Shown: piece by piece, positions 1,889-17,980 of the stretch
How positions within the stretch are numbered: the stretch's first letter is position 1
Layout of the letters: every line of letters starts with the position of its first letter
NCBI GenBank assembly: GCA_020444415.1
Contig: JAHLLA010000003.1
Location: 124,001-188,000 of the forward strand
Reading direction: 5' to 3'
Length of the DNA stretch: 64,000 bases
Source: Bacteroidota bacterium
GTDB lineage: Bacteria > Bacteroidota > Bacteroidia > Bacteroidales > F082
Made by a program: the position numbers and the translations under genes
The notes under the pieces: model-generated
The model's input: only the letters and a program-made list of their open reading frames with translations
Databases searched by the model: none
Told to the model about the DNA's origin: nothing

Positions 1889-3670
1889 ATGCATCAAAAA
1901 GCGCATTTTCTAAAAAGGATAACCATCATTCCATTTCTATTTTTTACACCCTTGATTTCTGGGTTTGCAGAAGAAAACCCTCAAAAAAATAAAAACCAGA
2001 CTGAAACAGTTAAGCAAGATAGTTTGAGGGTGGCTGATCTGTGTCGTCAGACCGCATACTACAACCAGGTTGTGAATGATGACCATTTAACTGACAGTGT
2101 TGCCGAACTGGCCATAGAAATTGCTACGGGTACTTTCAGCCCCGGCCTCATACTAGCAGCTTATGATAGTTATCTGGATCATACCAATTTAAACGTCAAT
2201 TATAATAAGGCATTAAATTATGCACTGGCGGCAGAACAGCTTAGCCGGACAGCCACGAACCAGTCACGGAACTGGAAAAGCGTATTGAATCTTTCAAAAG
2301 TTTACCTGGCCGGATATGAATTCGACAAAGCTTTGATATCAGCTTATAAATCTTTAACCCTAGCCGACGAACTGAACGACGATAAGAAAAAAATTGAAAG
2401 CTATTTGATGATAGGGAGAAGCCTGGAAAGCAGTAACCAAAAAATTGAAGCATTCAGAAATTACCTGGTGGCTACCAAACATGCAAAACTGGAGGAAGAT
2501 CAACAATTACTTTTAAGTTGTTACGCGCATCTTTCTGACTTTTACCTGAACAATAATTTGTACCAAAAAGCGGCGGCTTATAAATTAATGGAAGAAGAAC
2601 TGGTCAGCGGCAAACAACCGGTTGATTCGCTGGCCTTAATGTGGATAAAATACGACCTGCAGGTGATCAACCTGAATTCGGATGACACACGTATCCATCA
2701 GGAGTCGATGGAAGAAATACTTGATTTTGCGCATCGCAATAATCAGCAGAAGCTAAAAGAATATGAATTTGCAGTGTATCGATCCATGTTAACTAAACTA
2801 AATCGCATTGATCTGCTCAGGCAATTATATACCGAGAAATACCCGGCAGAATTTCAAAAGTTACACAGGGATTCACCATCTTTTTATTACAGGCTTAAAG
2901 CCTATTTCAGTGAAGAAGAAAGCAACTATGATTCAGCAGGATATTATTTTTCAAAAGCCAATGATTTGCTTAGAGATAATTCCAACAAAATCATGCGCTC
3001 AAATTTTTTAATTCGCTATGGTCAGTTTCTTGATCGTTCAGGCAACTACAAACGTGCTATCGTACATTTGAAAGAAGCATATCAATTGGCGGAGGAAGCC
3101 GGTTACATGGTATTTATGCTGAATGCCAGCCATGAACTCGAAAAGCTTTTTGCAAACGAAGCAAATTTTGAACAGGCATATCATTATGCAAACCTCAATA
3201 CACAGTTGAATGACAGCATTAACAAAATGGCTGAAAGGGATAAACTGCTCATGCTCGAAATTAATTATGAAGCGCAGCAACAGGCACTTGCCGAAGAACG
3301 AGAACGGCAGGAAACCCTGAGAAGGCATAACCTCCAATACACGGCCATTGTGATCGGTATTTTGACAGTGTTTGTTATACTCATTTTGTTGGGAAGTTTT
3401 AAAGTGCCCAAATGGATTATACAGGCGCTTGGTTTTGTGAGCTTTATATTCCTGTTTGAGTTTATCATTTTGCTGGCTGATCAGAAAATTCATCACATGA
3501 CCCACGGAGAGCCGTGGAAAATACTGGCTATAAAAATCGTACTGATTGGTATATTGCTGCCCCTGCATCATTGGATAGAACATAAGGTGGTGCAACGTTT
3601 GATCAGCAAAAAGCTGATTGATTTCAGCAGTTTTTCGGTACTGGATATTTTTCGAAAGAGTAAAGCTTAA
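1889..3670 (+). CDS. TPR-repeat protein with C-terminal membrane helices
   Basis: 593 residues. A signal peptide (residues 1-28, ending near SGFAEE) is followed by about 430 residues of helical, TPR-like repeats; examples are YNKALNYALAAEQLS and YKRAIVHLKEAYQLA. A short charged coiled coil (EAQQQALAEERERQETLRR) leads into three hydrophobic segments near residues 478-500, 505-526 and 540-560. The architecture resembles the periplasmic TPR sensor half of Bacteroidota hybrid histidine kinases, but no kinase or DNA-binding domain follows: the protein ends after the last helix. It faces the molybdoenzyme operon tail to tail. A role in protein-protein sensing or scaffolding at the membrane is inference. 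Confidence 0.65.
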   Translation: MHQKAHFLKRITIIPFLFFTPLISGFAEENPQKNKNQTETVKQDSLRVADLCRQTAYYNQVVNDDHLTDSVAELAIEIATGTFSPGLILAAYDSYLDHTNLNVNYNKALNYALAAEQLSRTATNQSRNWKSVLNLSKVYLAGYEFDKALISAYKSLTLADELNDDKKKIESYLMIGRSLESSNQKIEAFRNYLVATKHAKLEEDQQLLLSCYAHLSDFYLNNNLYQKAAAYKLMEEELVSGKQPVDSLALMWIKYDLQVINLNSDDTRIHQESMEEILDFAHRNNQQKLKEYEFAVYRSMLTKLNRIDLLRQLYTEKYPAEFQKLHRDSPSFYYRLKAYFSEEESNYDSAGYYFSKANDLLRDNSNKIMRSNFLIRYGQFLDRSGNYKRAIVHLKEAYQLAEEAGYMVFMLNASHELEKLFANEANFEQAYHYANLNTQLNDSINKMAERDKLLMLEINYEAQQQALAEERERQETLRRHNLQYTAIVIGILTVFVILILLGSFKVPKWIIQALGFVSFIFLFEFIILLADQKIHHMTHGEPWKILAIKIVLIGILLPLHHWIEHKVVQRLISKKLIDFSSFSVLDIFRKSKA

Positions 3671-3726: not shown

Positions 3727-5931
3727 TTAAGGAAGCCCTGACCAGGTATGAGCCTGTGGACCTTTTGCCGGTTCAATCTTTAAATCGAGTGCCGTTAATT
3801 TCGACATGCCCGACAGTTCATCAATGGCTTCGGGTCCAGAACCTGCGAGAATGTTTACATTCACTCCCTTTGCTTTACTGGCTTTTCGCATCCCCTTGGC
3901 ATCCTGGTGCCCCCATCCGTGCGGAATGGAAACCGTACCTGGCATGAGTTCGGCCAATATTTTTACTGGTATTCTTATTTGAGCATATTTTGATGATACA
4001 TCAGCGAAATCGCCTGCTTTTAATTTCAGTTGTTTGGCGTCGTCAGGATTCAAATACAAAAAGTTGGTGTTTTCAGTACCCTGAAGCATCCGGTCGGTAT
4101 TGTGGGTCCATGAGTTCTGTGTCTGCACCGTTCTTTTGGTGATCATTTTATAATAGCCATTCCTGTTGCTTTCTTTATCAAACAGAAGCTGCAAACGTGA
4201 TTGGGCAGCTTCCATTAATACAACTGGTGCCAGGTCTACTTTTTTATTTGTTGTATGCACGCGTTTCCCTAAAAAGTCATTTTCTTTATGATCTGGTCTT
4301 AACCAACCATTGGGGTTTTTAAGCAATTTTTTGAAGCCGGGCTGTCGGCATACTTTCAGCAGCACATTTAACATCGATTGCTGGGGCACAGCACGCTGTC
4401 CGTTATCCAGTCTGTTGAATTTCATCAGGCTTTCGAAAAATATCTGAGCAGCCTTGGAGCCCCATAACGGAAAGCCACTGGCTTTGGCCAGTTCTATATA
4501 AATGCTGGCTTCATCCCTTTGTTCGCCTTGTGGGGCAACCAATGCCTTTGTTGCCTGTAAATAGGGCCTGGTTTGCAATCCCAGCATAAGCGGAAATATG
4601 AAAGGCAGATCAGGACGCTGGAAAGGATCGGTGCACGGAAGTACATAATCGGCAATAGCACATGTTTCATTGTGTTGGATGTCAAGACAAACCAATAAAT
4701 CCAACTGACCAAATGCTTTTTTAAGTTTTTCCGAATCAGCCATAGTGATCAGCGGATTACCACCCGTAACAAATAAAGCTCTTACCTGCTTCTTTCCGGG
4801 TGTTAGAATTTCATCAGCCAAAATACCACCGGGGAAGGCATCATTTACGGTTCCGAAACCACCAACTCGTGATTTGAGATCCTTCATCAGCAGGCCATTT
4901 TTAACGCCAAATTTGATAAAGTCCATAATACCCCGACCAACAAGCGTTCCCCCTTTACGATCCAGGTTTCCGCTTACGGCATTAATCACTTCCTGTAACC
5001 AGAAAGCCAACGAGCCTTGTCCGCCCATGTTAACGCCGGTGGAAGAATACAAGGCAGCACCATTTGCTGATAAGTATAAACCTACCAGCTCTTTTAATAC
5101 TTCAGGCGGGATGCCGGTTACTTTGGCCGTTTTTTCTGCATTCCACTGGCTTGCCAGTTCCAACACCTCTTCAAGACCTGACATGTATTCACTAACGTGC
5201 TTTGTCTGAATGCCTTGTTTAATTTTGACTTCATTCAAAAACGACAAATAAAAAAAGACGTCAGTTCCGGGTTTGATAAAAATGTGTTCTTCGGCTACTT
5301 TGGCTGTTTCGGTTTCGCGCGGATCAACCACAATCACCCGTCCGCCCCGTTTTTTAATATCCCTGATGTGTTTTACAGGATTGGGCACCTGCAAAAATGA
5401 CCATTTGGAAATCACCGGGTTAGCTCCTACGATGATCAGGCATTCATTTCGCAACACATCCGGAAAGGGTTGTGTAAACGGGAAACCATACATGTGGCGG
5501 GCGGTGGCGAATTTATTACTGCAATCCTGGGTAGCACTCGCATACATGCTGTTTGAACCGATGCCTTCCAGAAAACCCTGTGCAAAAACCGGGTGCAGTA
5601 CGCCAAAACCGGCAGCCGTTCCCACATACATCGCGATAGCATCTTTACTGAATTCACCGGTTATATGCTTGACTTTCTGACCTATCTCGCTGAGCGCTTG
5701 CTCCCAACTGATGCGCACATGCTGACCATCTATTTTTTTAAGAGGATATTTCAGGCGGTCGGGTGATTGATAGATTTGATGCTGGTGCAGCCCTTTTACA
5801 CATCCAAAACCATGCGTGGCCACATGTTCAGCATTTGGAATGATTTTGACGATCTCGTTATTCTCCACTGTAACTTTCAATCCGCAGAGGGATTCACAAA
5901 TCCGGCAAAAAGTATATTTTGTTTCAGTCAT
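3727..5931 (-). CDS. Molybdopterin oxidoreductase with N-terminal [4Fe-4S] site
   Basis: 734 residues from the ATG at 5931; a TTG 12 bases upstream would add four residues but is less likely. The N-terminus has C9-x2-C12-x3-C16-x27-C44, the [4Fe-4S] motif of the formate dehydrogenase/NapA/BisC-like molybdopterin family. Molybdopterin-binding segments follow (IIVGANPVISKW, RVIVVDPRETETAK, and LFVTGGNPLITMAD). Cys137 in TQDCSNKFA is a plausible molybdenum ligand. The C-terminal dinucleotide-binding domain includes YLNPDDAKQLKLKAGDFADV and IPHGWGHQDAKG. There is no Tat signal or membrane segment, so it is probably cytoplasmic. It is the last gene of a four-gene minus-strand operon with an SCP2-like protein, a sulfotransferase and a DUF1214-like protein, hinting at redox chemistry on a lipid-like substrate. 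The substrate is unknown. Confidence 0.82.
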   Translation of the reverse strand: MTETKYTFCRICESLCGLKVTVENNEIVKIIPNAEHVATHGFGCVKGLHQHQIYQSPDRLKYPLKKIDGQHVRISWEQALSEIGQKVKHITGEFSKDAIAMYVGTAAGFGVLHPVFAQGFLEGIGSNSMYASATQDCSNKFATARHMYGFPFTQPFPDVLRNECLIIVGANPVISKWSFLQVPNPVKHIRDIKKRGGRVIVVDPRETETAKVAEEHIFIKPGTDVFFYLSFLNEVKIKQGIQTKHVSEYMSGLEEVLELASQWNAEKTAKVTGIPPEVLKELVGLYLSANGAALYSSTGVNMGGQGSLAFWLQEVINAVSGNLDRKGGTLVGRGIMDFIKFGVKNGLLMKDLKSRVGGFGTVNDAFPGGILADEILTPGKKQVRALFVTGGNPLITMADSEKLKKAFGQLDLLVCLDIQHNETCAIADYVLPCTDPFQRPDLPFIFPLMLGLQTRPYLQATKALVAPQGEQRDEASIYIELAKASGFPLWGSKAAQIFFESLMKFNRLDNGQRAVPQQSMLNVLLKVCRQPGFKKLLKNPNGWLRPDHKENDFLGKRVHTTNKKVDLAPVVLMEAAQSRLQLLFDKESNRNGYYKMITKRTVQTQNSWTHNTDRMLQGTENTNFLYLNPDDAKQLKLKAGDFADVSSKYAQIRIPVKILAELMPGTVSIPHGWGHQDAKGMRKASKAKGVNVNILAGSGPEAIDELSGMSKLTALDLKIEPAKGPQAHTWSGLP

Positions 5932-5965
5932 AAGGTGCTGCAATGTGTGTGTTAATAAATGAATA

Positions 5966-7024
5966 TTAGAATTCGCATAATTCTACCGTAGGCTGCTCAG
6001 GCATTTCTTCGGCCAATAACCAACGGCAGAAAATAATGGCTTCTTTATAAGCAGCCGTGCTGATCCAATTGTCGACATCCATAGGCCTGTGGCTTAAGAA
6101 TACCGTATAACTGTCATCATCATTGGCTTTTGCAGTTCCTTTGTTAATGCCCACTTTATAGTTTTTGTAATCCATGGATTGCATCAGAAAATTCCAGGTT
6201 TGAATGCCCCAGTAGCAACATTCGGGCGAAGTAAATCGAATTTTCAGGTACTGGTTTTCCTCCAGTCGAAATCTTCCAAAACAATAAATGTTATCTACGG
6301 TTCCCCAACCGCCCTGATCAGCTTCAAAAGCAAAAGGCGGAAGGAAATCATTCAATGGAAAATCAACAGGCAGGGGTGCGATCCAGGTAGTTTGCTCAAA
6401 AAAAGTTGACATCACACGGATGCGTTTTGCCAGTTCATCGTCATTTAAGGGGGTTGCCTTTTCCTGTGCTTTCAGATTTATTATTTCCAACTCACTTTCA
6501 CGACTGTCAAAACGGTCGAAAAAATATTCCCGCGTGAACATATTCACGGCATCGTCATCCAGTTTAAATTCATTTTTACCACTTGGGTTGGGCGTTAATT
6601 TGATCTCGAAACGACCATCGGCTTCAAATTCAATCTGCGTATGGTTGATGTTACTGCAAACCCTATCTACAATTTCGCCATTGGGCGAGCCGCCATATAC
6701 CGAAAAAGAAAGATAGCAACTATCAAAGCGTTTTCCTTTGATCAGGTATTCCTGGTCGCCTCGTAATTGGCTGAAATAATATACCGAATCCACATTATCG
6801 CCTACCAGTTTGTGGTAATCGTTTGCCAGCAACATAAATTGTGGACGTAAGGGGTCATTAAACAGGTAAAAATCTATGCTTGACCGCAATAAATGAAAAA
6901 TATGCTGATAGCCATCAATACGGCCTTGTTCGTCAATCACCTTCTCAGGATCAAGAAAGGTGCTATCGGCGTTTTTAATCACTTCCAGAAATTGATCGAG
7001 TGCTACTTTGCTTTTATATGTCAT
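5966..7024 (-). CDS. DUF1214-like protein
   Basis: 352 soluble residues with no signal peptide. Features that recall DUF1214 proteins are GDNVDSVYYFSQLRGDQEYLI (about residues 74-94, beginning GDNVDSVYYF), CYLSFSVYGG, the block LTPNPSGKNEF, and the C-terminal SHRPMDVDNWISTAAYKE followed by a Trp/Pro-rich tail. This assignment is from memory of the family and was not searched. DUF1214 proteins have no settled biochemical role and are often seen beside sulfotransferase or lipid/steroid-type genes in other phyla. The gene starts 10 bases after the sulfotransferase stop and ends 34 bases before the molybdoenzyme ATG, so the four genes are almost certainly cotranscribed. Confidence 0.6.
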   Translation of the reverse strand: MTYKSKVALDQFLEVIKNADSTFLDPEKVIDEQGRIDGYQHIFHLLRSSIDFYLFNDPLRPQFMLLANDYHKLVGDNVDSVYYFSQLRGDQEYLIKGKRFDSCYLSFSVYGGSPNGEIVDRVCSNINHTQIEFEADGRFEIKLTPNPSGKNEFKLDDDAVNMFTREYFFDRFDSRESELEIINLKAQEKATPLNDDELAKRIRVMSTFFEQTTWIAPLPVDFPLNDFLPPFAFEADQGGWGTVDNIYCFGRFRLEENQYLKIRFTSPECCYWGIQTWNFLMQSMDYKNYKVGINKGTAKANDDDSYTVFLSHRPMDVDNWISTAAYKEAIIFCRWLLAEEMPEQPTVELCEF

Positions 7025-7034
7025 GCTTTTTGGA

Positions 7035-8282
7035 TTACAGTTTTGATAAAAAATCGTTGTATGTATTGAATTTTGAATTGATGCCCTCTTCCGTCAGGCC
7101 AAAATCAGTGGGTGTATAATAATGTACACCATTCTTATCTTTCGGGTTCAAGTCCAGGAATCTTTCAAAATTGACCAATGCGGCATCGGATAATTCCCAG
7201 TTGAAACGATCGTAAATCTTTTTTACGACAGGTATTTGTCCCGCCACAAAATCATCAAATTTCAGGTCGATGATCTGCTCTTCTTTATCCAGTTTTTTCC
7301 GGCTTTCGATAAAGCTGTTAAAATACAGGCTCCAGGTGTCCGCTTGTTCATGCCCTGTTCTGACAGGGTCCTCATGGTCGCTGTAGAGTGAGCGTACCGA
7401 TGAGATCAGGCTGGCTGCTGAAGTAACCACTTTGGTGGGTTCCCGGTGGGTCATAATGATTTTCGCATCAGGATAGACCTCAAATAGTTCGGGCAACCGC
7501 ATCAGGTGTACGGGTGATTTTAGCAACCACCTGTCAGATTTTACACCACCCGATTGCAGGAATTGCAAAAAACGTTTGTGAAACCGCATAGTACTTAACC
7601 TATCGGCACGATGGGCGAACCAATCCATATATGATGGTACATATAATTGTGCTGATGTCTGGAAGCTGTTAAAATCAAAAGCATTGATACTCAGGCATTC
7701 CTGTGGCGAATCGGCGGACATATAGTGCTTGCGTAAAAAGTCGGGCACCAGTTTGAACAACTGTTTAAATTCTTTTATAATGGTTTTCAACTGCTCATTG
7801 GAGTAGAATGTCTCAGGTGTTGAAACCGGGTAGGGGAGCAGACACTCCCATGCCAGTGGCGACCGATGGGCCGGATCTTCATACATCAGCGCATGCAGAA
7901 TCGTTGTTCCCGTGCGGGGCATGCCAATAATGAAGATAGGTTCTTTAATTTCAGAAGCTTCAATATCGGGATTCTCGGCCAGCGCTCTTTCAATCATAAG
8001 TCGACCGTAAAGTGTCCTTTCAAATAAGCCTTTCACGGCCAATGAACCAAATGAATTAGGTCGGGCTTCTTCGTTGATGGATTTGACCAATTCACGAAGT
8101 CCGGTTTCTAATTGTTCGGGTATTTCACCTGTGCAGGAAGCTTTTTTTCTCGCTTTGTCGATGATTGCATCTGCGTTGAGCCTGAACGGATCAATGCCCA
8201 CCGATTTCAATACCTTTCCCACGCGATTGATCCCATTCAGTGTGGAAGTTCGCTGGATGCGTAATTCTTGCTGCTTTGCCAT
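7035..8282 (-). CDS. Sulfotransferase family protein (PAPS-dependent type)
   Basis: 415 residues. FIIGMPRTGTT (residues 117-127) is the 5'-phosphosulfate-binding P-loop of sulfotransferases. RWLLKSPVHL (251-260) and IIMTHREP (275-282) supply the 3'-phosphate-binding region with its conserved Lys, Ser and Arg. Such enzymes move a sulfo group from PAPS to a hydroxyl or amine acceptor, often a lipid, sterol or sugar. The 110-residue helical N-terminal extension before the P-loop is typical of the larger sulfotransferases found in actinobacteria and proteobacteria. Second gene of the operon, only 7 bases after the SCP2-like gene. The acceptor is not identifiable; no PAPS synthesis genes are in the window. 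Confidence 0.85.
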   Translation of the reverse strand: MAKQQELRIQRTSTLNGINRVGKVLKSVGIDPFRLNADAIIDKARKKASCTGEIPEQLETGLRELVKSINEEARPNSFGSLAVKGLFERTLYGRLMIERALAENPDIEASEIKEPIFIIGMPRTGTTILHALMYEDPAHRSPLAWECLLPYPVSTPETFYSNEQLKTIIKEFKQLFKLVPDFLRKHYMSADSPQECLSINAFDFNSFQTSAQLYVPSYMDWFAHRADRLSTMRFHKRFLQFLQSGGVKSDRWLLKSPVHLMRLPELFEVYPDAKIIMTHREPTKVVTSAASLISSVRSLYSDHEDPVRTGHEQADTWSLYFNSFIESRKKLDKEEQIIDLKFDDFVAGQIPVVKKIYDRFNWELSDAALVNFERFLDLNPKDKNGVHYYTPTDFGLTEEGINSKFNTYNDFLSKL

Positions 8283-8289
8283 GATCCCT

Positions 8290-8583
8290 TTACATTAACT
8301 GCTTTAGTTTTTGTGCCAGGCCAATATCTCCTTTCACCTTTATTTTTCCGGTGAGGGTGGCAATCATGGGTTTTATTTCTTTCCGCTGCAATTTTCCATA
8401 AGTTGCCTTACTCATGGTAATTGTGCAATCGGCATCTATATCCTGGTCAGAAATAATATTTTCGCTTACAGATCCATCAATCAGGATGGTGTCGTCATCC
8501 AGTTTAAATTTGAGCTTTTTTCCAATTGGATCAATTTTCTTTACGTTCTCGGCCAGCTCTAGCCGGATTTGTTCTATTTCCAT
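8290..8583 (-). CDS. SCP2-like sterol/lipid carrier domain protein
   Basis: 97 residues, a single compact domain. The order of hydrophobic strands, ADCTITMSKATYGKLQRKEI and the ending LTGKIKVKGDIGLAQKLKQL match the SCP2 sterol-carrier fold, which binds fatty-acyl or sterol-like ligands in a hydrophobic tunnel. There is no signal peptide, so it should act in the cytoplasm. It is the first gene of the operon and may present the lipid substrate to the sulfotransferase or molybdoenzyme encoded downstream; that division of labour is inference. The ATG at 8583 opens the operon. A TATTTTTA sequence just upstream is only a weak -7 match. Confidence 0.75.
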   Translation of the reverse strand: MEIEQIRLELAENVKKIDPIGKKLKFKLDDDTILIDGSVSENIISDQDIDADCTITMSKATYGKLQRKEIKPMIATLTGKIKVKGDIGLAQKLKQLM

Positions 8584-9688: not shown

Positions 9689-10507
9689 TTATAATTCATT
9701 TACTTTATACACTTTCAAATTATCAAGAAATCTATCTTGCTTTTTAATCTTTTGAATCGTATCAAAATAATGTTTCTCAGTAATTAGGATATCTACATAA
9801 GGAATGGTTGCTCCAATCAAGATATCAAACACATCTGATAATTGTGGATTCCTATTGTCCGAATAAAACTTATAGAAAACCGAATATGACATGATCTTAA
9901 ATGACTGAAGATTATTTAAACTGATATTCTTATCTGTCAGGTTATTTTTCAGAACAAAGCTCTTGTCATACATTAAGACCTGCTGAAATGTTGACGTAGT
10001 GACAAAATATTGAATCTCTTTTTTAGAATATTTACTAGTCTTTGACTGAAAGTTATCCTTAAGACTCAACATCCCTTCTAATATCCGTTGCTTGTTATTC
10101 TCCCATTTATCAAATGTGGAAGTAAGCTTTTTATTTGTGAGTAGTTTATGGACATCTTTCTCGTTGATTAACTGACCTTTAGGTCTCTTGACATCAAATG
10201 GTGATAATAATAAAATATCTAGGTATCTTGAATCTTGATAATTTTGTAATTCCTCATCTCGAAGTTGCTCATAACCTTTAAGAAAAAAAGAGGGAATAAT
10301 TGAAAACATTTTACAGAATCTATCAAGCAAATATTCATTCCTTGAAATCTCCATGATTGTAAAAGGTGAATATGTAATCAAGTTTTTATCAGGAGGAAAT
10401 CTATCAAATAGATTTTTCAATTTAGAATCCTTCTCCTTTAATATATTACTAAGAGCGTTTGTGTCAAGCTGCAATATTTTGTATGATTTACCTCCGATTG
10501 TTACCAT
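9689..10507 (-). CDS. PIN-like domain protein, possible toxin/nuclease
   Basis: 272 residues from the ATG at 10507. The acidic residues are placed as in PIN nucleases: KILQLDTNALSNIL near the N-terminus, an acidic residue in TYSPFTIMEI, and a C-terminal PQLSDVFDILIGA followed by VDILITEKHYFD, the last strand with its acidic and lysine residues. The protein is about twice the size of a VapC toxin, and no small antitoxin-like gene is adjacent, so a classical VapBC pair is not supported. A TTG 42 bases upstream lies inside the -7 box and is rejected as start. The composition is AT-rich and Lys/Asn-rich, as often seen for acquired genes. The PIN call is moderate; activity is unproven. Confidence 0.5.
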   Translation of the reverse strand: MVTIGGKSYKILQLDTNALSNILKEKDSKLKNLFDRFPPDKNLITYSPFTIMEISRNEYLLDRFCKMFSIIPSFFLKGYEQLRDEELQNYQDSRYLDILLLSPFDVKRPKGQLINEKDVHKLLTNKKLTSTFDKWENNKQRILEGMLSLKDNFQSKTSKYSKKEIQYFVTTSTFQQVLMYDKSFVLKNNLTDKNISLNNLQSFKIMSYSVFYKFYSDNRNPQLSDVFDILIGATIPYVDILITEKHYFDTIQKIKKQDRFLDNLKVYKVNEL

Positions 10508-10546
10508 AATTTGGATTTTGCCCAAAGTGGTTATATACGCACCTTT

Positions 10547-10554
10547 CAAAGTTA
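10547..10554 (-). promoter_or_regulatory. -7 box of the PIN-like gene
   Basis: TAACTTTG on the minus strand, exact TAnnTTTG, 39 bases before the ATG at 10507. It contains the TTG that would otherwise be an alternative start. Confidence 0.45.
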
Positions 10555-10659: not shown

Positions 10660-11856
10660 CTATCTGCTAACAATCTCATAAGTATCTTTCGCGATCATCA
10701 TTTCCTCGTCTGTAGGCACAACAATCACTTTTACCTTTGAGTCAGCAGAAGAAAGTATGGTTTCTTCCCCTTTCTTATCAAGGTTTTTTGGATTCAGATC
10801 CACACCCAGAAAATCCAACCCGGATAAAATACGTTTCCGTGTTTCGGTATCCATTTCCCCAATACCCCCGGCAAAAACAATGATGTCCACACCGCCCATC
10901 GCTGCTGCATAAGCACCTATGTATTTTTTTGCCCGGTAGGCAAACATGTCGAGTGCCAGTTGGGCGCGGTGGTTGCCTTCATTGGCAGCGTTTTCAATAT
11001 CGCGCATATCAGATGATACTCCCGAAATCCCAAGCATGCCCGAGTTTTTATTAAGTAAATTAGAAGTTTCCTTAATGCTGGTTTCTTCTTTTTCGGCCAT
11101 GTAGAGCAAGGCGCCGGGATCAATATCGCCGGTACGCGTACCCATGATCAGTCCTTCGGCAGGTGTCATCCCCATGGAAGTGTCGAAGGATTTACCATTT
11201 TTAATGGCCGCCATAGACGAACCATTGCCGAGGTGGCAGGTAATGATCTTCTGGTCTTTGATATTTACACTAAGGATATCGCAAGCCCGCTGCGAAATAT
11301 ATTTATGGCTGGTACCATGAAAACCGTAGCGGCGCACCTTGTATTTTTCGTAGAGTATGAAAGGGATGGCATATAAATACACATGCTCGGGCATCGTCTG
11401 GTGGAAGGCTGTATCAAAAACACCCACCTGCGGTGTTTCGGGCAGCAGGTTTTGCATGGTGTAAATGCCTGCCAGGTTAGGTGGATTGTGCAGGGGTGCC
11501 AGTTCTACGCATTCTTCCAGCGCTGCAATCACTTCTTTGGTAATGGGCACGCTGCCACTAAAGGCTTCCCCGCCATGCACCACCCGGTGGCCAATGGCGC
11601 TGATTTCTTCCAGCGATTTTAAGCTACCATTTTCAGGGCTTACCAGGATACGTAAGACTTCTTCTATACCTTTCTGGTGATTAGGAATGGACATCTCCAT
11701 TTTCAGGTCAACACCTGCTTCATTTTTATGTTTGATCACGCTGTTTTTCAAGCCTACCTTTTCCACCAAGCCTTTGGCAATAACTTTGTTTTCGGGCATT
11801 TCAACCAACTCGTATTTGATGGATGAACTGCCACAATTCAATATGATAATCTTCAT
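10660..11856 (-). CDS. ackA: Acetate kinase
   Basis: 398 residues, the normal length for AckA, which interconverts acetate + ATP and acetyl phosphate + ADP. Motifs: N-terminal phosphate loop ILNCGSSSIKYEL, IGHRVVHGGEAF with the substrate-contacting Arg/His, FDTAFHQTMP, GFHGTSHKYI, and HLGNGSSMAAI leading to GTRTGDIDPG. It starts 10 bases after the stop of the acetyl-CoA synthetase/acetyltransferase fusion and is surely cotranscribed with it. The usual partner pta, which makes acetyl phosphate from acetyl-CoA, is not in the window. The fused ADP-forming synthetase can itself bypass acetyl phosphate, which makes the pairing notable. Confidence 0.97.
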   Translation of the reverse strand: MKIIILNCGSSSIKYELVEMPENKVIAKGLVEKVGLKNSVIKHKNEAGVDLKMEMSIPNHQKGIEEVLRILVSPENGSLKSLEEISAIGHRVVHGGEAFSGSVPITKEVIAALEECVELAPLHNPPNLAGIYTMQNLLPETPQVGVFDTAFHQTMPEHVYLYAIPFILYEKYKVRRYGFHGTSHKYISQRACDILSVNIKDQKIITCHLGNGSSMAAIKNGKSFDTSMGMTPAEGLIMGTRTGDIDPGALLYMAEKEETSIKETSNLLNKNSGMLGISGVSSDMRDIENAANEGNHRAQLALDMFAYRAKKYIGAYAAAMGGVDIIVFAGGIGEMDTETRKRILSGLDFLGVDLNPKNLDKKGEETILSSADSKVKVIVVPTDEEMMIAKDTYEIVSR

Positions 11857-11866
11857 GCTAACAATT

Positions 11867-14551
11867 TTAATTTAATTCTTTTACTACTGATACATTGCTA
11901 TCGTCGCCATATTCCACTGTGAACCCTTGTTTTCTGAAAACAGCGATCATGGCTTTGTTGTCTTTGGTGGTTTCGGCATACAGCTTTTTAACCCCTGCAT
12001 TTCTCGCAATTTCTTCACAATATTCAGTCAGTTTCACGCCCAATTCTTTATGTTGCCATTCGTCGGTCACCAAAACAGCATATTCGGCAATCACCACATC
12101 AGGATCAGAAATTAAACGTCCCACACCAACAAGTCTTTTCCTTCCTTCAAAATCTACTTCGGCAACGATACCCATTTCGCGGTCATAGTCGATATAACAG
12201 AATTGTGTGGCTACTTCGTGCGAGTTAAAATGAAAATCGTAACGGAACCTTGAATAAATGGATTCTTTCGAGCAACTGGCCAGCATTTCAAGCCACAGGG
12301 GTTCGTCTTCAGGTTTTATAGGCCTTAAAGTAACAGGAGTACCATCGCGCAATACATCTTTTTTGATCAGCCGCTCAGGATAAGGGCGCAATACGAGGTG
12401 AGAATATTCGGGCAAATTCTTACCCAACACACTCTGGTCAATAACGATCCTAGCGTCCAATGCAATTACATCATCCGATGTGACGATCAGCGGGTTGATA
12501 TCCAGTTCTTCAATTTCCGGATAGTCGGCAGCCAGGTAGGACAAACGGATGAGAACTTCAATTAATTTCTGAATATTTTTGGGTTTGCTGCCGCGATACC
12601 CTTCCAGCAATGGAAATACTTGCAGTGATTTTAGCATTTGGAATGCCAATCGATCATTCAAAGGCGGGAATTCAAGTCTCCTGTCTTTAAAAAGCTCGGC
12701 TTTTGTACCGCCCATACCCACCAGGATCACGGTGCCGAAAATGGAATCTTTTTTAATACCCAGGATCATCTCCACGCCGTCGGCAGTGTTCACCATTTTT
12801 TGAACCGTAATGCCATCAATCCGGGCATCCGGTGCTCTTTTTGCAACAGTTTTCTGAATGTCATGATAAGCAGCTCTTAAACCTTCTTCCGAATGAATAT
12901 CCAATGCAACACCTCCTACATCAGTTTTATGAAAAATGTCGGGTGATTGAATTTTAAGTACGACAGGATACCCTTTCTTTTTGGCAATTTTTACAGCTTC
13001 ATCTTCAATTTTACTAAGCTCCGGATGGGTAGATTCAATGCCATAATCATTAATCAGGAGTTTTGAATCATCTTCAGCTAATACTTTGGCTTTCGGGAAG
13101 ACTTCTGTAATATATTTTTCTCTTAATTTTTTCCGGTCGTAGGAAAATGAAACCGGTACTTCCTTTGGTGTTTCATATAGAAGATCCAGGTTGCGCGAAT
13201 ATTTCGAAAGTGTCATAAAAGCGCTGATGGCCTGTTCGGGTGTTGAGTACACGGCAATTTCTGCTTCAGTGAACACTTCTACGCCACCACGCATACTTAT
13301 GCCTCCCAACCATGCTGCCATGATCAGTTTGGATGTTTTAGCTGACAATTGGGCAATCGCCTTTGCTGTTCCGGTAGGATCTGTCATGGCCTGCGGTGTA
13401 AGTATCACAAGGATGGCATCCACGTTATTATCCTCTATCACTATTTCAGTGGCTTTTGCAAAACGCTCGGGTGTAGCATCTCCCAGCACATCCACCGGGT
13501 TGCCGTGCGACCAGTATGAAGGCAACAGCGCATCTAGTTGCTGAATGGTTTCATCCTGAAGTTTCACCAATTTTCCTCCCATAGAAATGAGGTTGTCGGT
13601 AGCCATAACACCGGGTCCGCCGGCATTGGTTACAATGGCCAATCGAGAACCTTTCGGCATGCGTTTACGCCCAATAAGATCAGTGAAATTAAAAATATTG
13701 CCAATGCTATACACCCGTGCTATACCCGCTCTTCTGAAAACGGCATCATAAATATTGTCTTCCGATGCCAGAGCCCCGGTATGTGAAGCCGCTGCTTCTG
13801 CTGATTCAGGGAATCGACCTGCCTTATAAACGATAATGGGTTTTTTACGTGCAAATGCCCTGGCTGCCGACATGAAAGCGCGCGCATCCACCAACGATTC
13901 GATATAGAGAACGATAGATTTTGTATTGGTATCCTGGCCAAAATAATCGATAAGATCCCCAAAAGTGACATCCATAGCATTCCCCACTGAAACAAAGTAA
14001 GAAAAACCGACATTTGCATCTTTAGCCCAATCCAGCACCGATGTACATAAAGCACCTGATTGCGATATAAATGCCACGTGACCTTTTTTAGGCATACCAT
14101 TGGCAAAACTGACGTTCATTTTCAAGCCGGGGACGATAATACCGAGGCAGTTGGGGCCTATCACCCGCATACCTGGAAATGCTGCCAGTTGCTTTTTTAC
14201 GTTCTCTTCCAGTGTTTTACCGTTTTCCCCTGTTTCTTTAAATCCTGCCGACATGATGATAATACCGTTGATCCCAGCTTCACCACATTCTTTGATAATT
14301 CCCGGTACGACATTGGCTGCTGTCATGATCACAGCAAGGTCAGGTGTTTTCGGGAGACTTTTTACATCGGGGTAGCAGGGGATGCCCATCACGGCTTCCC
14401 GTTTCGGGTTGATAGGATACACAACGCCCTGGTATCCGGCACCCACTAAATTGGTGAGTGTAATTCCGCCTACACTTTTAGGGTCGTTTGAAACGCCTAT
14501 CAAGGCAATCCTTTTGGGGCGGAAAATACTATCAAGTTTTTTTATCGGCAT
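11867..14551 (-). CDS. ADP-forming acetyl-CoA synthetase fused to GNAT acetyltransferase
   Basis: 894 residues. Domain order: CoA-binding Rossmann domain (about 1-130, with IALIGVSNDPKSVGG), succinyl-CoA-ligase-like domains (about 150-460), ATP-grasp beta subunit (about 480-700, VVLKIQSPDIFHKTDVGGV), then a C-terminal GNAT domain (about 725-890, starting at TLRPIKPEDEPLW). This is the Pat/PatZ-like architecture. The Pat enzymes of enterics lose the catalytic phospho-histidine; here ASHTGALAS retains His257, so the synthetase half may be active (acetyl-CoA + ADP + Pi to acetate + ATP and CoA). The GNAT half could acetylate proteins such as Acs. Operon with ackA. Its promoter carries a palindromic operator shared with the porin-acs operon. 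Confidence 0.88.
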   Translation of the reverse strand: MPIKKLDSIFRPKRIALIGVSNDPKSVGGITLTNLVGAGYQGVVYPINPKREAVMGIPCYPDVKSLPKTPDLAVIMTAANVVPGIIKECGEAGINGIIIMSAGFKETGENGKTLEENVKKQLAAFPGMRVIGPNCLGIIVPGLKMNVSFANGMPKKGHVAFISQSGALCTSVLDWAKDANVGFSYFVSVGNAMDVTFGDLIDYFGQDTNTKSIVLYIESLVDARAFMSAARAFARKKPIIVYKAGRFPESAEAAASHTGALASEDNIYDAVFRRAGIARVYSIGNIFNFTDLIGRKRMPKGSRLAIVTNAGGPGVMATDNLISMGGKLVKLQDETIQQLDALLPSYWSHGNPVDVLGDATPERFAKATEIVIEDNNVDAILVILTPQAMTDPTGTAKAIAQLSAKTSKLIMAAWLGGISMRGGVEVFTEAEIAVYSTPEQAISAFMTLSKYSRNLDLLYETPKEVPVSFSYDRKKLREKYITEVFPKAKVLAEDDSKLLINDYGIESTHPELSKIEDEAVKIAKKKGYPVVLKIQSPDIFHKTDVGGVALDIHSEEGLRAAYHDIQKTVAKRAPDARIDGITVQKMVNTADGVEMILGIKKDSIFGTVILVGMGGTKAELFKDRRLEFPPLNDRLAFQMLKSLQVFPLLEGYRGSKPKNIQKLIEVLIRLSYLAADYPEIEELDINPLIVTSDDVIALDARIVIDQSVLGKNLPEYSHLVLRPYPERLIKKDVLRDGTPVTLRPIKPEDEPLWLEMLASCSKESIYSRFRYDFHFNSHEVATQFCYIDYDREMGIVAEVDFEGRKRLVGVGRLISDPDVVIAEYAVLVTDEWQHKELGVKLTEYCEEIARNAGVKKLYAETTKDNKAMIAVFRKQGFTVEYGDDSNVSVVKELN

Positions 14552-14583
14552 GTTTTGAGTTTCTTAAATAACATATAATCAGT

Positions 14584-14591
14584 CAAATATA
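14584..14591 (-). promoter_or_regulatory. -7 box of the acetyl-CoA synthetase/GNAT-ackA operon
   Basis: TATATTTG on the minus strand, 32 bases before the ATG at 14551. No TTG -33 is present at the normal distance; the palindrome at 14604-14625 occupies that region. Confidence 0.5.
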
Positions 14592-14603
14592 AGGTATATG
14601 CGG

Positions 14604-14625
14604 TTTTGTTAATTGATTAACAAAA
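14604..14625. promoter_or_regulatory. Palindromic operator, acetyl-CoA synthetase/GNAT promoter
   Basis: Perfect 9-base arms TTTTGTTAA and TTAACAAAA around TTGA. The core TTGTTAA-yTGA-TTAACAA recurs at the porin-acs promoter (19294-19315). It overlaps the -33 region of the -7 box at 14584-14591, so a bound factor could block or recruit polymerase. The regulator is unknown. Confidence 0.65.
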
Positions 14626-14694
14626 GTACTAAAATGTAGTGGATTACACAGAGCTTTCATGTTAATTTATTCTGAACAATACCTGTTCATACAA

Positions 14695-14725
14695 AAAAAC
14701 GCCCGACTAAAAGACGAGCGTTTTT
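14695..14725 (-). terminator. Intrinsic terminator after the OFA transporter gene
   Basis: Stem arms AAAAACGC and GCGTTTTT with a partly paired interior, 19 bases beyond the stop at 14744 and followed by a T tract on the minus strand. Confidence 0.7.
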
Positions 14726-14743
14726 CAATTGGTATGTATGACG

Positions 14744-15994
14744 TTATTTTTTTGCCGGTTTTACCATAATGGTCAGAACTGTTCCGACAAGCACCGCTAT
14801 ACCAGCAATGGTAAATGCAAGTGGGAAGTTTCCGATGTCACCCAGTTTACCACCAAGGATAGGACCGATGATGCCTCCAAATCCATATGCCAAAAATACC
14901 CATGGATAATTCTGTCCGACATTTTTCGAACCGAATGTGTCGGCGGTTATGGTTGGGAACAAAGCAAAGTTACCACCAAAGTTGAAACCGATCAAGGTAG
15001 CTCCGAGGTACAATAAGTATTCATTGCCGGCCATAAAAGTAAAAAGGATTACGACTATCCCCTGGATGGCAGTCATGGTAATGATGGATGTTTTACGACC
15101 AAGTTTATCGCTGAGCATGCCCCATAAAATTCTTCCAAGTCCATTGGCAAGACTAAAGAAAACCGCCATAGCTGTGCCGGCGATGGCGCTGGCTTCTAAC
15201 TCAGTAAGTCCGTTTGCCTGTAGTGCTTCCATGGGATATAATTTCATGAGCCCGATCGACATTAAACCTGCACCTGCACTGAATACAAAAGTGAGAAAGA
15301 TGAGATAAAACTGAACTTTACCCAGCATTTCAGTACTTGAAAATTCTCTTTCGTCTTTCTTTACTGCACCCGGAGTAGTCTGAGATTCTTCATAGCCTGC
15401 TGGTTTCCAGCCTGCTGGAGGAAATTTCATCCATAGTCCGCCAATGATCACCATCACAGCGAAGGCAATCCCATAAGCCATAAATGTGTTTGATAAACCC
15501 ATGTTGGCAATTAGGTGCCCCCAGGCTCCGGCTAATTTTACCCATAACAGGGCACCAAATCCGAAACCAGCTACGGCCAGCCCAGTGATCATTCCTTTTT
15601 TATCGGGAAACCAGCGCATACCCACTGCAATCGGAACGACATAAGCAAAGCCTATACCAGCACCTCCTACCAAACCAATTAGTAAAAGAAGTGCCCAGAA
15701 ATCTGTTCCGCCCAACAGACCAGCTAAGAAATAACCAATACCCAGTATAATACCACCGATGATGGCAAGACGTTGAGGGCCCCAGCTAGCCAATTTTTTT
15801 CCGGCAAATACCATAAATACCGCAAATGATGCCAATCCGATGGCAAACACCCACTGGGTTTCAGATTTGGCCCATCCTTCAGCAACTAAAGAAGGTGTAA
15901 ATACTGACCAGGCATAGATGGCACCAAGGGCTAACTGAATAAGGATAGCACCAACCACCACCAGGCCGCGGTTCATTACTTTTTTATTTTCCAT
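14744..15994 (-). CDS. MFS transporter, oxalate/formate antiporter (OFA) family
   Basis: 416 residues with about 12 membrane helices. The N-terminal LALGAIYAWSVFTPSL and the GLGRILWGMLSDKLGRKTS loop are signatures of the OFA branch of the major facilitator superfamily, whose members move small carboxylates such as oxalate, formate or lactate across the inner membrane. Lying between acs and the acetyl-CoA synthetase/ackA operon, it is a good candidate for acetate or related monocarboxylate transport; that is inference from context. A 30-base palindrome at 16021-16050 separates it from acs and a terminator follows it, so it is probably its own transcription unit. Confidence 0.85.
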   Translation of the reverse strand: MENKKVMNRGLVVVGAILIQLALGAIYAWSVFTPSLVAEGWAKSETQWVFAIGLASFAVFMVFAGKKLASWGPQRLAIIGGIILGIGYFLAGLLGGTDFWALLLLIGLVGGAGIGFAYVVPIAVGMRWFPDKKGMITGLAVAGFGFGALLWVKLAGAWGHLIANMGLSNTFMAYGIAFAVMVIIGGLWMKFPPAGWKPAGYEESQTTPGAVKKDEREFSSTEMLGKVQFYLIFLTFVFSAGAGLMSIGLMKLYPMEALQANGLTELEASAIAGTAMAVFFSLANGLGRILWGMLSDKLGRKTSIITMTAIQGIVVILFTFMAGNEYLLYLGATLIGFNFGGNFALFPTITADTFGSKNVGQNYPWVFLAYGFGGIIGPILGGKLGDIGNFPLAFTIAGIAVLVGTVLTIMVKPAKK

Positions 15995-16020
15995 GTTTTA
16001 TTTTTTTGAATGAAATCAAA

Positions 16021-16050
16021 TAAAAAAGACACCTTAAGGTGTCTTTTTTA
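16021..16050 (-). terminator. Perfect 30-base palindromic terminator after acs
   Basis: Arms TAAAAAAGACACCTT and their exact reverse complement meet with no spacer. It lies 8 bases past the acs stop and ends in T on either strand, so it can terminate in both directions. Confidence 0.75.
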
Positions 16051-16057
16051 ATGTTAT

Positions 16058-17980
16058 CTATCGTTTAACTTCAACTTTGGCACCTTCAATGATCTCTTCA
16101 ACAACGCCCGGATCGAGCAATGTGGAAGTATCACCCAGGTTGGAAGCATCACCTTCACCAATCTTACGTAAAATTCTACGCATAATTTTACCTGAACGTG
16201 TTTTTGGTAATCCGCCTACAATTTGGATCTTATCAGGCTTGGCAATAGGCCCGATGAATTTTGTTACCGTAGCCCTGATTTCATCTTCGATGGTTTTCAT
16301 TTCATCTTCCGAGAGGTCTTCGCAAATGACATAAGCATAAATACCTGAACCTTTGATCTCGTGCGGATAACCCACCACAGCCGATTCATTTACTTTTGGA
16401 TGCTGGTTGATGGCATCTTCCACTTCGGCGGTTCCAATCCTGTGACCAGACACGTTAATCACATCGTCGATACGGCCAATAATACGGTAGTATCCTTCTT
16501 CATCGCGTTTGGCACCATCGCCGGTTAAATACAAACCACTGAACATGGAGAAATAGGTGTCGTAACATCTTTTATGATCGCCATAAGTAGTACGTAGCAT
16601 ACCGGGCCAGGGGAATTTTATACAAAGGATACCTTCAACACCGTTTCCTTTTAACTCCTTGCCTTCAGGGTCAACCAGAACAGGCTGAACACCAGGTAAA
16701 GGCAATGTAGCTAATGAAGGTTTTGTAGGTGTGATACCGGCAAGCGGAGTAATCATAATGCCACCTGTTTCAGTTTGCCACCAGGTATCCACAATCGGGC
16801 AACGGCCGCCACCGATCAAATCGTGGTACCAGCGCCAGGCTTCTTCATTAATGGGTTCTCCAACGGTTCCCAGTACTTTCAGTGAACTCAGGTCGTGTTT
16901 TGTTACCCATTCATCACCTTGTGCAACCAATGCACGAATAGCAGTTGGTGCTGTATAAAACTGGTTGACTTTGTATTTTGCAACAACTTCCCAGAACCTG
17001 CCCGGATCGGGCCATGTAGGAACACCTTCGAACATAATGGAGGTGGCACCAGCCAATAAGGGGCCATACACAATGTAAGAGTGGCCTGTAACCCAGCCAA
17101 TATCGGCAGTACACCAGTAAATATCTCCGTCATTGTATTGAAATACATTTTTGAAAGTATATTCAGCATACACCATATAACCGGCTGTTGTGTGCAATAC
17201 CCCTTTCGGTTTTCCGGTTGATCCGGAAGTATACAGAATGAACAATGTATCTTCTGAATCCATCACTTCGGCCACGTTATCAGTTCCTACACCTTTAATG
17301 GCATCATGCCACCAAATGTCACGACCTTCTTTCCAGTTGATGTCTTCACCGGTACGTTTTAATACAATATTGTGTTTTATGCTCGGGCAATTCTCCAATG
17401 CCTCATCAGCGATGGCTTTTAAAGGAATAGATTTAGTGCCGCGGTATCCGCCATCAGAAGTGATCAGTACTTTACAATCTGAATCGTTAATCCTGTCAGC
17501 AAGAGCCGTGGCTGAAAATCCTGCAAAGATGATGGAGTGAATGGCTCCGATACGGGCACATGCCAGCATAGCAACCGCCAATTCAGGAACCATAGGTAAA
17601 TAGATGGCTACTCTGTCGCCTTTTTTAACACCCAGTTTTATCAGTGAATTTGCAAATTCTTTTACTTTTTCAAACAGCTCACCATAGGTAAGTTTAATTT
17701 CTTTTTCATTTGGATCATTTGGCTCCCAGATAATGGCCACCTGGTCTTTACGCATGAACATGTTCCTTTCGAATATATTCTCTGTAATATTCAGTTTGCC
17801 GTTAACAAACCAGTTTACATCAGGGGCATCCGGCCCGTCAAATCTCCAATCCAATACCTTATCCCATTTTTTACGCCAAAAATTGGACTCTGCAATTTCT
17901 GCCCAGAATGCTTCAGGGTTTGCAACACTCTCCTGGTACTTCTGATAGTACTCCGCCATACTTGTGATCTTATTCGTCAT
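16058..17980 (-). CDS. acs: Acetyl-CoA synthetase, AMP-forming
   Basis: 640 residues, full length for Acs, which activates acetate to acetyl-CoA through acetyl-AMP. Adenylate-forming motifs are present: TLFILYTSGSTGKPKG (phosphate loop), DTWWQTETGG, YLTGDGAKRDEEGYY and the C-terminal PKTRSGKIMRRILRK. The Lys in SGKIMRR (about residue 598) is the site that protein acetyltransferases modify to switch Acs off in other bacteria; the GNAT fusion encoded at 11867-14551 is an obvious candidate modifier, by inference. It starts 44 bases after the porin gene on the same strand and probably shares the porin promoter and operator. A strong terminator follows. Confidence 0.97.
   Translation of the reverse strand: MTNKITSMAEYYQKYQESVANPEAFWAEIAESNFWRKKWDKVLDWRFDGPDAPDVNWFVNGKLNITENIFERNMFMRKDQVAIIWEPNDPNEKEIKLTYGELFEKVKEFANSLIKLGVKKGDRVAIYLPMVPELAVAMLACARIGAIHSIIFAGFSATALADRINDSDCKVLITSDGGYRGTKSIPLKAIADEALENCPSIKHNIVLKRTGEDINWKEGRDIWWHDAIKGVGTDNVAEVMDSEDTLFILYTSGSTGKPKGVLHTTAGYMVYAEYTFKNVFQYNDGDIYWCTADIGWVTGHSYIVYGPLLAGATSIMFEGVPTWPDPGRFWEVVAKYKVNQFYTAPTAIRALVAQGDEWVTKHDLSSLKVLGTVGEPINEEAWRWYHDLIGGGRCPIVDTWWQTETGGIMITPLAGITPTKPSLATLPLPGVQPVLVDPEGKELKGNGVEGILCIKFPWPGMLRTTYGDHKRCYDTYFSMFSGLYLTGDGAKRDEEGYYRIIGRIDDVINVSGHRIGTAEVEDAINQHPKVNESAVVGYPHEIKGSGIYAYVICEDLSEDEMKTIEDEIRATVTKFIGPIAKPDKIQIVGGLPKTRSGKIMRRILRKIGEGDASNLGDTSTLLDPGVVEEIIEGAKVEVKR

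Follow-up and report, generated by a model that had tools for sequence, protein, structure and literature searches.

Do the four consecutive genes on the minus strand at positions 3727-8583 of a Bacteroidales contig constitute a single functional unit, and what might such a unit act upon? The window, i.e. the whole 64,000-nucleotide stretch that was analyzed (G000:C10:124001-188000), comes from a host assembly, G000, that is 96.2% complete. The original prediction had viewed the four genes as an operon acting on one hydrophobic substrate, perhaps making or handling a sulfated lipid.

Gene layout of the locus

The genes of the locus and those of a further run in the window are as follows:

8290-8583, minus strand: SCP2-domain lipid carrier, 97 aa, first gene of the cassette (Pfam SCP2, 1.3e-13)
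7035-8282, minus strand: sulfotransferase of the PAPS type, 415 aa (Pfam Sulfotransfer_3, 5.1e-40)
5966-7024, minus strand: DUF1214-like protein, 352 aa (Pfam DUF1214, marginal)
3727-5931, minus strand: single-subunit, FdhF-like Mo/W-bis-MGD oxidoreductase (Pfam); the open reading frame extends over 3727-5943
10660-11856, minus strand: acetate kinase-like protein (named by eye)
11867-14551, minus strand: ADP-forming acyl-CoA synthetase with a GNAT domain (Pfam)
within 10660-17980, minus strand: MFS transporter and acetyl-CoA synthetase (Pfam)

The open reading frame positions bear out the predicted gene coordinates and the gaps of 7, 10 and 34 bases on one strand, provided that the molybdopterin oxidoreductase starts at the ATG at 5931, a start at which its 89% identical homologue in a genome of the same genus (G002) likewise opens with MTETKYTFCRIC. 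Pfam supports all four of the proposed identities, that of the DUF1214-like protein barely above the cut-off. No SDR gene was found in the window cassette using the ORF list and Pfam; there, SCP2 adjoins the sulfotransferase instead. Terminator-like sites number 15 as against 6.1 in shuffles, most of them inside genes, and the search for RNA features recovered one tRNA only. Elsewhere in the window, the minus-strand run at 10660-17980 resembles an acetate metabolism cluster, the 286-aa protein encoded at 9689-10549 has no Pfam match at E 0.001, and the gene at 1889-3670, which is convergent with the molybdopterin oxidoreductase gene, encodes 593 aa that match TPR weakly and include hydrophobic stretches toward the C-terminus.

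A conserved cassette of three genes

A close version of the DUF1214-like gene is present in six of the 37 genomes of the same family, namely the host and G003, G012, G014, G019 and G025, and in the latter five the order SCP2, sulfotransferase, DUF1214-like is identical, with 65-84% identity. Scanning 84,980 species genomes yielded 309 relatives, the best 80 of which were kept and comprise 45 close loci (52-84% identity) and 35 distant ones (27-32%); five of the 45 are apparently the loci of the five family genomes just named. As a contig end cuts three of the close loci, SCP2 could be seen in 42, and 40 of these 42, drawn from the best 80 of the 309 relatives, encode SCP2, the sulfotransferase and the DUF1214-like protein in this order and on the same strand, with SCP2 not seen in the remaining two (L062 and L065). 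This degree of synteny is far beyond chance.

The close loci span Bacteroidota, Gammaproteobacteria and Acidobacteriota, with one record under Chlorobiota, and the tree of the DUF1214-like proteins splits them from the distant loci with 99% SH-aLRT support. The three proteins also co-diverge: their distance matrices show r 0.92-0.94 overall and r 0.68-0.75 when only Bacteroidota are considered, the latter reached in none of 2000 permutations, with the shared ancestry of the genomes contributing to the correlation. The distribution is patchy, with 6/37 genomes in the family and 1/395 phylum-wide. No fourth recurring partner was found in the close clade beyond near relatives; the one candidate, a pair of acyl-CoA dehydrogenase and nitronate monooxygenase-like genes, occurs in three related genomes only. 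The conserved unit is a set of three genes, SCP2, sulfotransferase and DUF1214-like, rather than four, and constitutes an accessory cassette with its own clade.

The cassette proteins and their wider family

The sulfotransferase scores 138.5 bits with Sulfotransfer_3, for which the cut-off is 27. The predicted P-loop and 3'-phosphate motif are both present, as RTGTT and as R280-x7-S288, the latter of which we take to be the 3'-phosphate site, and the residues R123, T126, E146, H186, K255, H259, R280 and S288 are invariant in 45/45 aligned sequences from both the close and the distant group. Its AF2 model (pLDDT 93) matches STF1 of M. tuberculosis (2zq5; TM 0.80/0.90), a member of the same sulfotransferase family and fold with an identity of about 25-30%, as well as STF9 of M. 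avium. The SCP2 protein aligns with its profile over residues 15-97 (51.6 bits against a cut-off of 21.3) and matches solved structures of sterol carrier protein 2. While the DUF1214 profile covers only the C-terminal part of the third protein (25.5 bits against a cut-off of 25), this protein is a full-length homologue of an uncharacterized protein from B. cenocepacia (6ans; profile match 3.5e-130), which its AF2 model also matches (pLDDT 93; TM 0.90); weaker, partial fold matches were obtained to VPA0735 and VPA0106. The invariant polar residues of this family (K72, D76, N77, Y82, R165, N278, N319, T323 and R334) suggest a ligand-binding or active site.

The distant loci lack a detectable SCP2 gene in profile searches and are mostly of the form DUF-ST-SDR (ST, sulfotransferase), the SDR gene following that of the sulfotransferase in 25 loci among the best 80 of the 309 relatives. 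This SDR type of ST-DUF module is represented in Mycobacteriales, Pseudomonadota and other Bacteroidota. Two genomes, G002 and G031, carry the distant version only (about 28% identity); with the close cassette absent, a second, distant DUF-ST pair with SDR genes occurs there at L018 (G031) and at L019 and L020 (G002). Some distant loci of Aureispira and Pseudomonas have a polyketide-cyclase/lipid-transport-like gene nearby, which possibly replaces SCP2 as the small binder of a hydrophobic ligand. Such a gene lies near DUF-ST in L071, L073, L078, L080, L085, L089 and L090, the first two of these having been checked with Pfam.

Two of the related loci have genes for making PAPS next to the pair. 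In Tsukamurella, a DUF-SDR-ST locus lies beside cysD and cysC, and its sulfotransferase is orthologous to STF1 (1.9e-171), while its DUF protein matches 6ans. A DUF1214-family protein is thus encoded beside a sulfotransferase as in the window, although this mycobacterial-type locus has an SDR and no SCP2, whereas the window cassette has SCP2 and no SDR. In Paraburkholderia sprentiae the order is ADH-DUF-ST-VOC-CysQ-CysD-CysN, and PAPS supply and PAP removal are therefore encoded beside the pair; the plasmid-borne stretch in question (L127 3579-14496) carries genes for an ecdysteroid 22-kinase family protein, SDR, ADH, DUF1214, sulfotransferase, CysQ, CysD and CysN. PAPS dependence is well supported for this sulfotransferase family and for the related loci.

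Other relatives hint at the acceptor. We take the DUF-SDR-ST type of Mycobacteriales to be Rv3531c-Rv3530c-Rv3529c, Rv3531c presumably being the DUF1214 protein and Rv3529c STF1. In mycobacteria, Rv3531c has a KstR site upstream (PMC1995591). In a plasmid collection, sphingomonad plasmids carry a DUF1214 gene together with SDR, TonB receptor, P450 or ring-cleavage genes, often with a sulfotransferase within 10 kb, and related genes are found on plasmids of the Sphingobium TomTYG strains, which stem from work on isolates that degrade alpha-tomatine (PMC10653915); the text of that paper, when searched, mentions neither a sulfotransferase nor a DUF. Among Bacteroidota sulfotransferases, BT_0416 of Bacteroides, likened here to the window enzyme by description, sulfates cholesterol using PAPS according to the excerpt of PMC9417993; the same excerpt places putative PAPS-synthesis genes (BT_0411-0415) next to it and reports no SCP2 or DUF partner, whereas the window sulfotransferase has both.

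A literature search recovered no paper naming DUF1214 together with a sulfotransferase and no published function for the pair, in keeping with the prediction of an undescribed system. The pairing as such is already present in known genomes and structures, functionally undescribed, and the SCP2-containing form is a conserved variant of it.

Substrate, sulfuryl donor and the molybdopterin oxidoreductase

Taken together, these observations lead us to propose, with an even chance of being right, that the three genes form an accessory module in which SCP2 delivers a hydrophobic compound bearing a hydroxyl, the sulfotransferase sulfates it, and the DUF1214-like protein binds or processes the same molecule. 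In this scheme, the small cytosolic SCP2 protein would bind the hydrophobic hydroxylated molecule and hand it over to the sulfotransferase, which would transfer the sulfuryl group from PAPS to its hydroxyl; the DUF1214-like protein, a predicted beta-sandwich, would bind or further convert this molecule, for example by acting on the sulfate ester or by preparing the acceptor. As to the nature of the compound, the presence of SCP2 and the contexts of the distant relatives suggest its class: an imported or environmental compound of steroid- or terpenoid-like type, or else some other lipid, is more likely than a self-made sterol or hopanoid; the steroid link comes from distant relatives only (about 25-32% identity), which possibly have another substrate. 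A squalene/hopene cyclase (SQHop_cyclase) was not found in G000 or in most of the Bacteroidota carriers tested, and was found in several Gammaproteobacteria and in the Acidobacteriota carriers; a home-made sterol or hopanoid is therefore unlikely as the substrate in the host. Accordingly, the predicted single hydrophobic, sulfated substrate gains from the PAPS genes beside related ST-DUF pairs and from the steroid-linked relatives; a self-made sterol or hopanoid is disfavored.

An endogenous, non-sterol sulfolipid is a serious rival as the product. Here the cassette would make a constitutive sulfated membrane lipid instead of processing an imported compound, and both SCP2 and a sulfotransferase fit a membrane lipid. 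Moreover, the close clade has neither a transporter nor a catabolic gene as a conserved neighbor, nor any conserved neighbor that names a substrate. However, the patchiness of the cassette within a single family is awkward for a constitutive lipid, the relatives sit among catabolic genes, and the missing cyclase weighs against it as well, though excluding only sterols and hopanoids; on balance we consider sulfolipid biosynthesis unlikely.

A more elaborate version of the proposed module draws on the sulfotransferases of CurM (4gbm) and of an olefin synthase (4gox) and on retinol dehydratase, all distant profile and fold matches to the window enzyme. In these, sulfate is added and then eliminated, serving as a leaving group. 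By analogy, the three proteins could work as a dedicated machine: sulfation would activate a hydroxyl on a hydrophobic molecule, and the DUF1214-like protein, on this view a new enzyme, would then eliminate or rearrange the sulfate ester, a step that the mycobacterial steroid-linked loci would share. Unlike these systems, the window cassette comes without a thioesterase or known elimination partner; casting the DUF1214-like protein in that role is speculation, and we rate the whole idea a long shot.

The role of the fourth gene can be weighed more directly. The molybdopterin oxidoreductase has three Pfam domains above the cut-off (Fe4S4, molybdopterin and dinucleotide-binding) and reached no NCBIfam equivalog cut-off among the 25 families listed; the predicted [4Fe-4S] cysteines are present, and C141 in the motif TQDCSNK is, judging from the sequence, a possible metal ligand, as had been suggested. 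Were all four genes one operon with the molybdoenzyme as a working step, it might, for example, oxidize or reduce the substrate before or after sulfation. The shared strand, the 34-base gap and the lack of an excess of promoter-like sites over shuffles in the region (promoter scan) make co-transcription in the host plausible, and the gene may indeed be co-transcribed with the cassette. But among the best 80 of the 309 relatives, the sequence extends 2.5 kb or more past the DUF gene in 34 close loci, and in none of these 34 does a homologue adjoin that gene; remote molybdoenzymes (22-23% identity) occur in L024 and L058, about 8 and 2 kb away respectively and on the opposite strand. Within the family, no close homologue was found in the stretches taken from G003, G012, G014, G019 and G025, nor is there one at E <= 1e-60 in these five other cassette-carrying genomes. 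Conversely, the sole close homologue, that of G002, belongs to a genome that yielded the distant DUF-ST type and no close cassette; there, the gene downstream of the homologue resembles the window gene at 326-1120. The gene is rare, for it is present in only 2/61 relatives at E <= 1e-60 and 3/395 phylum genomes at E <= 1e-90, host included in both counts. Not being conserved beside the cassette, it is a neighbor in one genome and no conserved cassette member, and the four-gene unit is therefore rejected: the check on neighborhood conservation upheld the predicted association for the first three genes and not for the fourth. A working step for the molybdoenzyme in the host is in our judgment quite improbable.

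The supply of PAPS in the host itself is less straightforward. In G000 (96.2% complete) we found no APS kinase or CysD match above noise and no Sat match, the CysQ-like match is low-scoring only, and CysH is present (G000:C28:75247-75954). The CysQ-CysC-CysD-CysN cluster of same-genus and family genomes was not found there; as these genes are grouped in the relatives, one assembly gap could hide all of them. Neither APS kinase nor CysD was found in two further cassette genomes, G003 (86% complete) and G454, and APS kinase was not found in G466 (locus L041). Across genomes, APS kinase is present in 29/33 with the cassette and 24/27 family genomes that carry no form of the module, and there is thus no association with the cassette. 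Two further sulfotransferase-like genes are encoded in G000 (C21:133826-134635 and C17:45104-45985). That the host lineage enzyme has ceased to be a PAPS sulfotransferase, using another donor or merely binding its ligand, would accord with these missing genes, but with every PAPS-site residue retained and CysH present we regard it as very improbable.

Finally, the cassette connects a functionally uncharacterized protein family with a sulfotransferase across many bacteria. Via the STF1 orthologue, this link extends to a mycobacterial locus type connected with the cholesterol regulon. The carrier, the transferase and the DUF1214-like protein make up a compact, testable set for tracing the substrate and for working out what the last of these does.
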